Positions 44,474-64,000 of a stretch of DNA of 64,000 nt are shown here, piece after piece (the first letter of the stretch is position 1; every line of letters begins with the position of its first letter). The notes under the pieces are model-generated. The model was given only the letters and a program-made list of their open reading frames with translations, did no database searches and was not told where the DNA came from. Both the position numbers and the translations under genes were made by a program. Origin of the DNA: Gemmatimonadaceae bacterium (lineage in GTDB: Bacteria > Gemmatimonadota > Gemmatimonadetes > Gemmatimonadales > Gemmatimonadaceae); assembly GCA_025928335.1 (NCBI GenBank), contig JAICJQ010000003.1:16970-80969 (forward strand), read 5' to 3'.

Positions 44474-44619
44474 CTATCCCCTCGGCGAGAGACACCCGAG
44501 CGCAGTCGAGACCCTCACGTGGTGTTGAGATCGCCGGCGGCGCGGTTGGAGTCGCCGCCAGTTGCCGCGACGTGTGTCGCTGAGGGGTTTTACACCACCT
44601 GTTCGCGACAGTGCCGATT

Positions 44620-44717
44620 GGCCAGTTGGGGTGGCCAGTTGGGGTCAGACTCCGTTTTTGAGACGGGGTCAGACTCCGGTTCGGCCGTTCCGTTTTCGAG
44701 ATGGGGGTGAGACTCCG
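44620..44717. repeat. GGCCAGTTGGGGT tandem pair followed by three GGGGTCAGACTCCG-type repeats
   Basis: GGCCAGTTGGGGT at 44620 and 44633; GGGGTCAGACTCCG at 44641 and 44665; GGGGTGAGACTCCG at 44704. Confidence 0.8.
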
Positions 44718-44767: not shown

Positions 44768-44799
44768 TTGACATAGCTAGTTAGGTATAGCTAGTTAGG
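44768..44799 (+). promoter_or_regulatory. Promoter with embedded 13-bp direct repeat (14-bp period) for padR
   Basis: TTGACA (44768) - N18 - TAGTTA (44792); ATAGCTAGTTAGG at 44773-44785 and 44787-44799. Confidence 0.65.
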
Positions 44800-63306: not shown

Positions 63307-63350
63307 CCAACGATCCCGCTGCTCGCGATGCATCTCGGCGCCACGGCGGG

Positions 63351-63415
63351 ATTGAAGGACGGGGGTGAAGGACGGGGGTGAAGGACGGGGGTGAAGGACG
63401 GGATTAAGGATCGGT
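63351..63415 (+). repeat. 13-bp tandem array (5 units), consensus GGTGAAGGACGGG
   Basis: ATTGAAGGACGGG | GGTGAAGGACGGG x3 | ATTAAGGATCGGT; abuts the stop codon of the four-helix-bundle gene. Confidence 0.95.
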
Positions 63416-63834
63416 CATGGCTTCTCGGCCCCAGGCTGCCTCACTCGCCCTCGACCGGTGTTGCTCACGAGTTGTCGTTCCTTTGCGGTGCTGTCGGCCT
63501 GAAGGCCGCGAATCATTCGAGAACTGCACAGCACGCCGCCGGCCAGGTTGATGGCTGTTTGATCGCGAATAATCCCGTATTCTCGCGCAATGTCGATCTG
63601 CCCGAGAAGCTCGGACGCCGATTTCGCGGCGGAGTCGAGGAACCTGCGATAGTCCTTCGGCGATGATGCCGCACGTCCCTCGGCGATGTTGTTGCACACC
63701 GACTCGGCAGCCGCGATCATCTGCGCCTTCAGTTCGGCGTATCCTCGCCGCGGGAAGTGCGAGACGACGTCGCGCACTTTGACCGCATTGATGACGGCGC
63801 ACTGCCACGCCTTCAACCCACGATAGTCCGACAT
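63415..63834 (-). CDS. Four-helix-bundle protein (S23/23S-rRNA-IVP family)
   Basis: YRGLKAWQCAVINAVKVRDVVSHFPRRGYAELKAQMIAAAESVCNNIAEGRAASSPKDYRRFLDSAAKSASELLGQIDIAREYGII. Confidence 0.9.
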   Translation of the reverse strand: MSDYRGLKAWQCAVINAVKVRDVVSHFPRRGYAELKAQMIAAAESVCNNIAEGRAASSPKDYRRFLDSAAKSASELLGQIDIAREYGIIRDQTAINLAGGVLCSSRMIRGLQADSTAKERQLVSNTGRGRVRQPGAEKP

Positions 63835-63906
63835 GCATTAGGATGACCGCGCGAGGTTGAATGAGCATCACCAAATCAGCCCTCCCCCGAATCAATCCAC
63901 GCCCCC

Positions 63907-64000
63907 GCCGTTCAAGCCCGCCGTTCAAGCCCGCCGTTCAAGCCCGCCGTTCACTCCCGCCGTTCACTCCCGCCGTTCACTCCCGCCGTTCACTCCCGCC
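63907..64000 (-). repeat. 13-bp tandem array (3x GCCGTTCAAGCCC + 4x GCCGTTCACTCCC, continues off window)
   Basis: Read directly; reverse complement AGTGAACGGCGGG matches the 63351 array unit GGTGAAGGACGGG at 10 of 13 positions. Confidence 0.95.

Follow-up and report, generated by a model that had tools for sequence, protein, structure and literature searches.

Open reading frames for S23 proteins in rRNA intervening sequences (IVSs), tandem heptamer repeats, and S23 genes within cas loci have each been described, in separate publications (PMC4990558, PMC4692102, PMC4679880, PMC3936711, PMC10910872). In the 23S rRNA IVSs of Coxiella and Leptospira, an S23 ORF lies within an inverted-repeat stem. 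The Coxiella IVS contains GACAGAT heptamers whose copy number varies among strains, and RNase III cuts this S23-containing IVS at its terminal stem; excision has also been reported for other 23S IVSs (PMC4990558). The rRNA IVS, already termed a selfish element, is a precedent for the elements considered here, and the copy described below shares its layout of an S23 ORF within an inverted-repeat stem. In contrast to the IVS, most of the elements analyzed here are found between protein genes rather than in rRNA genes, with many copies per genome and with solo hairpins. In Azospirillum, an S23 gene with heptamer arms is located inside a complete 23S rRNA gene (L087), and the classical intervening sequence is therefore the same kind of element.

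The heptamer repeats known from cyanobacteria (STRR) and Xanthomonas (GGGAATC), together with the TAACTGA repeats, are built from the same kind of unit as the arms of S23 elements, and the Xanthomonas GGGAATC arrays frequently occur as inverted pairs (PMC4692102). In that literature the arrays are not tied to S23, whereas here they are tied to both a gene and an insertion; S23 was not mentioned in the literature examined on the Xanthomonas and Nostoc repeats and the TAACTGA repeats. REPIN/RAYT systems offer a further likeness, in that a gene is flanked by inverted repeats and many nonautonomous hairpins are present per genome. However, RAYT is a Y1 tyrosine transposase and S23 is a helix bundle without the Y1 motif, and tandem arrays, not single palindromes, make up the S23 arms. 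Avd from diversity-generating retroelements (DGRs) has a related helix-bundle fold, based on comparison of structures 4DWL and 2GSC (PMC10053308), and S23 matches the annotated DGR Avd of phage BalMu-1, but S23 elements need neither a reverse transcriptase nor template and variable repeats. The open-licence literature that was searched contained no text joining non-rRNA S23 genes with inverted heptamer arrays, although earlier reports may exist.

An S23 Gene Bracketed by Inverted 13-bp Arrays

The window (the whole 64,000-nucleotide stretch of Gemmatimonadaceae DNA that was analyzed) ends with the following features.

63415..63834, minus strand: S23 / 23S rRNA-IVP four-helix-bundle gene, 139 aa (PF05635 and TIGR02436 profiles)
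63351..63414, minus strand: 3' arm in the gene sense, four exact and one degenerate 13-bp units, C-rich on the coding strand
63904..64000, minus strand: 5' arm in the gene sense, at least seven 13-bp units, G-rich on the coding strand
63343..64000, minus strand: whole S23 hairpin element, as far as assembled (inverted arms and bracket score)

The 139-aa protein scored above the curated thresholds of both PF05635 (74.2 bits, cut-off 33.8, 1.2e-20) and TIGR02436 (67.7 bits, cut-off 24, 8.8e-19), and it matched XCC0516 (PDB 2gsc) at 1.3e-8, a relationship resting on sequence homology only. A first-pass annotation, made from sequence alone, had reported inverted 13-bp arrays bracketing an S23/IVP gene, and this was upheld by the sequence, the profiles, and the bracket score. 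The left array abuts the stop codon and runs in the order ATTGAAGGACGGG, three copies of GGTGAAGGACGGG, and a degenerate ATTAAGGATCGG (TRF: 63353-63402, 3.8 copies, 100%); its earlier description as a 5-unit array held only in part, with four full units and one decayed rather than five clean ones. The right array, read as its reverse complement, consists of four copies of AGTGAACGGCGGG, three of CTTGAACGGCGGG, and a cut unit (TRF: 63904-64000, 7.5 copies, 97%). It begins 69 bp from the start codon, in agreement with the annotated array of at least seven units ~70 bp upstream, and is truncated because the end of the window is also that of contig C280 (80969). Its unit count is a lower bound, and the outer right border of the element is not assembled. 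Corresponding units of the two arrays are identical at 10 of 13 positions, as claimed.

The arms (63343-63405 and 63927-63989) form an inverted repeat of 63 nt with 78% complementarity, and the resulting bracket score of 57 compares with a maximum of 40 among 2000 shuffles. In the gene sense, the G-rich arm is upstream and the C-rich arm is downstream. The element follows a FabI-like reductase gene, and Rfam found no rRNA in the locus (L003), placing this copy outside a 23S rRNA gene. The first-pass annotation would have been contradicted by identical arrays found genome-wide at unrelated genes, and these were not seen; the exact 13-mer pattern occurs at just one other place in the assembled genome (L279, G000:C250:69653), as a one-sided array. 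That array has ~12 units of the 13-mer family, without an S23 gene and with no inverted partner within 1.5 kb. Elsewhere in the window, two-copy tandem repeats of 13 and 14 bp are present at 44619-44645 and 44773-44799; the 44.6-44.8 kb region was considered and rejected, as it contains no hairpin array.

Inverted Arrays Accompany S23 Genes across Many Phyla

All eight S23 genes in this genome are bracketed by inverted arms, each with its own repeat sequence. Their matched left and right flanks scored 38-179, versus mostly 16-30 for flanks of different loci (one such pair reached 70 and one 47). When relatives were included, 33 of 36 loci scored ≥30, versus 5% of cross pairs. In a comparison restricted to S23 genes with enough flank, from this genome and its relatives, a score of ≥35 was reached by 65/72 S23 genes versus 1/124 size-matched control ORFs (p=1.3e-42), and the proportion was 1.1% in a wider set of 553 control ORFs. 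A gene-blind scan of 854 kb yielded 45 strong brackets, with 33 at S23 genes. One of the remainder is a frameshifted S23 pseudogene and another consists of solo heptamer arrays at a rarA-like gene; most of the other non-S23 brackets are, by their look, GC-rich coding sequence. The frameshifted copy retains intact arms (L049:14369-14996). At the rarA-like gene, the heptamer arrays lie within and at the end of the coding sequence, with in-frame read-through (L061:11024-11779).

Plasmid-borne S23 genes of Nostoc, Calothrix, Anabaena, Geminocystis, and Riemerella also have inverted arrays on both sides, in most cases with clear heptamer units such as TAGGGAG, CAGGGAA, and GGTGACA; Stanieria is the weakest case. 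We take the Nostoc arrays to be classical STRR repeats. A scan of GTDB genomes provided 80 S23 loci from many phyla, 78 of which were tested for brackets. A score of ≥30 was obtained for 60/78, including a locus from an ANME-1 archaeon, versus 3% of cross pairs; this nonzero rate is explained in part by units shared among related loci. Among 137 arms, the repeat period was 7 in 78, 8 in 11, 14 in 7, and 13 in only 2, with no clear period in 35. The G-rich arm is the 5' (upstream) one in 131 of 134. The elements fit tightly between genes (median distances of 17 and 10 bp to the neighboring ORFs), and many neighbors are on the opposite strand.

At two groups of shared intergenic sites (L031/L035/L043/L055 and L006/L010/L015), S23 genes recur across several genera or species. 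The arms are wholly different among these loci, yet inverted within each locus where they were found; L055 has only weak arms, and L010 yielded none. Since Gemmatimonadaceae relatives have different arms at the same locus, replacement or turnover must also occur.

The Repeat Unit Tracks Protein Identity

Across genomes, arm similarity was ~0.18 for proteins with <40% identity and rose to 0.31 at 60-65%, 0.54 at 65-75%, and 0.77 above 75% identity, although the pairs are not independent. In the pairs that were checked, including the cross-phylum pairs L142/L144 and L012/L104, synonymous sites were saturated or nearly so (pS 0.67-0.93), and the repeat unit has therefore been retained with the protein beyond neutral drift. 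It is likely that the S23 protein recognizes its own repeats; the support for this is indirect, coming from sequence covariation, and there are no binding data.

Filled and Empty Sites

The best empty site is a conjugation-gene locus represented on plasmid C of Trichormus variabilis, where the unit is missing from plasmids with 98%-identical flanks. Comparison of filled (L089/L272) and empty (L263/L265) versions identified a 423-bp insert composed of the S23 gene and its arrays. The filled site reads AAAAAGTAAT|AAATCAGAATTCAG ... TTCTTCTTT|GTAATTAACAAAT and the empty site reads AAAAAGTAATTAACAAAT, with GTAAT on both sides of the insert as a 5-bp direct repeat. The same insertion is present in Scytonema NIES-4073 with two repeat units fewer. 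Further filled/empty pairs are L274 vs. L277, L085 vs. L276, L092 vs. L271, and L082 vs. L266, the last differing additionally by ~40 bp of other sequence. No clear target duplication was evident in these four pairs, so that duplication is clear at one site only (GTAAT) and is not clear at two other clean sites. Unit number differs between near-identical copies (L089 vs. L272 and L082 vs. L269), and homologous elements occur at unrelated sites, with homology confined to the element. The copies on Calothrix NIES-22 plasmids 1 and 2 were rejected as independent copies; they have the same flanks, so they provide no evidence for transposition.

These comparisons show, by sequence, that the gene and arrays are gained as one unit; movement itself was not observed, and any single empty site could possibly reflect precise loss of the unit. 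The first-pass proposal that gene and arrays form one unit is supported by these empty sites, which lack both the arrays and the gene, and by the locus-specific inverted arrays at nearly all S23 genes and not at other genes. Array enrichment relative to control genes is strong, and the absence of enrichment that would have refuted the proposal was not found. The suggested empty sites and array-length variation were both seen for the element class (on cyanobacterial plasmids), and insertion of the window copy as a unit is inferred by analogy. The 13-bp unit requires correction as a class feature, 13 bp being the exception and 7 bp the usual length. For the proposal that the protein recognizes its flanking repeats, support is indirect only: the unit tracks protein identity at saturated synonymous sites, without binding data.

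Solo Hairpins and the Xanthomonas Elements

Short hairpins of the same array type but without a gene are scattered through S23-bearing genomes. The following are inverted heptamer/octamer arrays of 70-105 bp with no gene.

L043:12926-13027, solo hairpin
L054:3208-3286, solo hairpin
L054:7675-7763, solo hairpin
L055:14461-14530, solo hairpin
L063:13432-13525, solo hairpin

Several of the 17 periodic solo hairpins resemble an S23 arm from their own genome more closely than any arm from another genome. Pairs of solo hairpin and S23 arm scored ≥30 in 11% of same-genome comparisons versus 0.7% of comparisons with other genomes.

In Xanthomonas, the accB-accC junction contains an S23 element in 28 of the 30 species examined and a solo hairpin instead in the other two. 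The known GGGAATC heptamers match the arms of this element. Its S23 gene is under purifying selection (median dN/dS for its two types, 0.07 and 0.12), in contrast to the Coxiella IVS ORF, which is reported to be decaying (PMC4990558). Some insertions, such as that at accB-accC, are old and stable, and this counts against the mobility reading. Broken Xanthomonas S23 copies, with a stop or frameshift, were seen at L250 and L253. The carA-carB junction (L203-L232) is a hot spot, with S23 elements in 4/30 and various small ORFs in the rest; it was unusable as an empty-site test because other small ORFs fill the junction in most species.

Proposed Mechanism and Alternatives

Small mobile hairpin elements (~0.4-0.7 kb), each with an S23 gene between inverted arrays, most probably form a widespread class to which the window copy belongs. 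The proposed layout of the class is an S23/IVP gene with two inverted short tandem arrays (usually of 7 bp, here of 13), the G-rich arm being upstream. In the model, S23 protein would bind its own repeats when these are single-stranded or folded into a hairpin, an inference without binding data. A solved S23 relative is a pentamer of helix bundles, and the window protein is predicted to form a pentamer by homology only. S23 is not known to contain a catalytic motif; S23 and an unidentified host enzyme are inferred to promote insertion of the hairpin. By analogy with RAYT and REPINs, S23 may also act in trans on solo hairpins. Insertion into a 23S rRNA gene would give rise to the known intervening sequences excised by RNase III.

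Three other explanations were weighed against this one. The arrays might serve as an RNA device, in which the arms of the transcript fold into a long stem and RNase III cleavage frees the S23 mRNA and separates the neighbors, with S23 protein binding the stem RNA and mobility being incidental. RNase III cleavage of the terminal stem in the Coxiella S23 IVS (PMC4990558), the fixed strand polarity, and the tight placement of elements between genes, often in operons, are in its favor. However, many neighboring genes are on the opposite strand, and selection for pairing of sense-strand RNA was not supported by a wobble test, which found no excess of G.U over A.C mismatches (287 vs. 272, p=0.55); we consider this explanation unlikely. 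Less plausible still is a passive origin, in which slippage grows repeats near S23 genes and template switching copies an arm, the protein being unrelated. This reading can draw on the varying unit number of near-identical copies (L089 vs. L272 and L082 vs. L269), the symmetrical mismatch types, and the different arms of same-locus relatives. Against it, only 1/124 control ORFs is bracketed, empty sites also lack the repeats, the unit tracks the protein at saturated synonymous divergence, and the G-rich polarity is fixed.

It is similarly improbable that known machinery acts in trans, with a reverse transcriptase or a Y1/RAYT transposase moving the hairpins and S23 merely a helper. PF05635 has been noted as Avd-like (PMC10053308), S23 matches the BalMu-1 DGR Avd, and the combination of a gene with solo hairpins resembles RAYT/REPIN. 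However, among 13 S23-rich genomes, RVT_1 was missing from 10 and Y1_Tnp (PF01797) from 6. Neither profile had a match in Gemmatirosa (G021) or in G024, a genome rated 100% complete, and RVT_1 was not found in G000 (79% complete). A genome-wide need for either enzyme was rejected, given the S23-rich genomes that have neither.

Implications of the Mobile-Element Reading

The function of S23/IVP proteins and the origin of heptamer repeats (STRR, GGGAATC) are both decades-old questions, treated apart in the literature found. Returning to the mobile-element explanation, a bolder version of it holds that the mobility of unnamed, transposase-less elements ending in inverted tandem arrays is conferred by S23 proteins; that each protein recognizes its own unit in nucleic acid that is single-stranded or in hairpin form and also spreads gene-less hairpins; and that such elements are the origin of the cyanobacterial STRR, the Xanthomonas heptamers, and the rRNA intervening sequences. 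As a joint claim, this could as readily prove wrong as right. The finding would unite the S23/IVP family, heptamer repeats, and rRNA intervening sequences as one element class spanning many phyla, and the question could be tested with a single small protein and a single oligonucleotide. If S23 is a mobility protein, the element class would be new, and should a helix-bundle pentamer drive insertion, mobility would be conferred by a protein that has no known transposase fold.

The reading also offers a plainer view of the S23 genes reported in CRISPR-cas loci (PMC3936711, PMC10910872), as insertions of the kind found at cas10-cmr3. The S23 element between cas10 and cmr3 (L092) represents an insertion present in Picosynechococcus 7003 but not in 7002, and S23 genes in cas loci may therefore be passengers. 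Another S23 element is located between cas6 and cas4 (L081).
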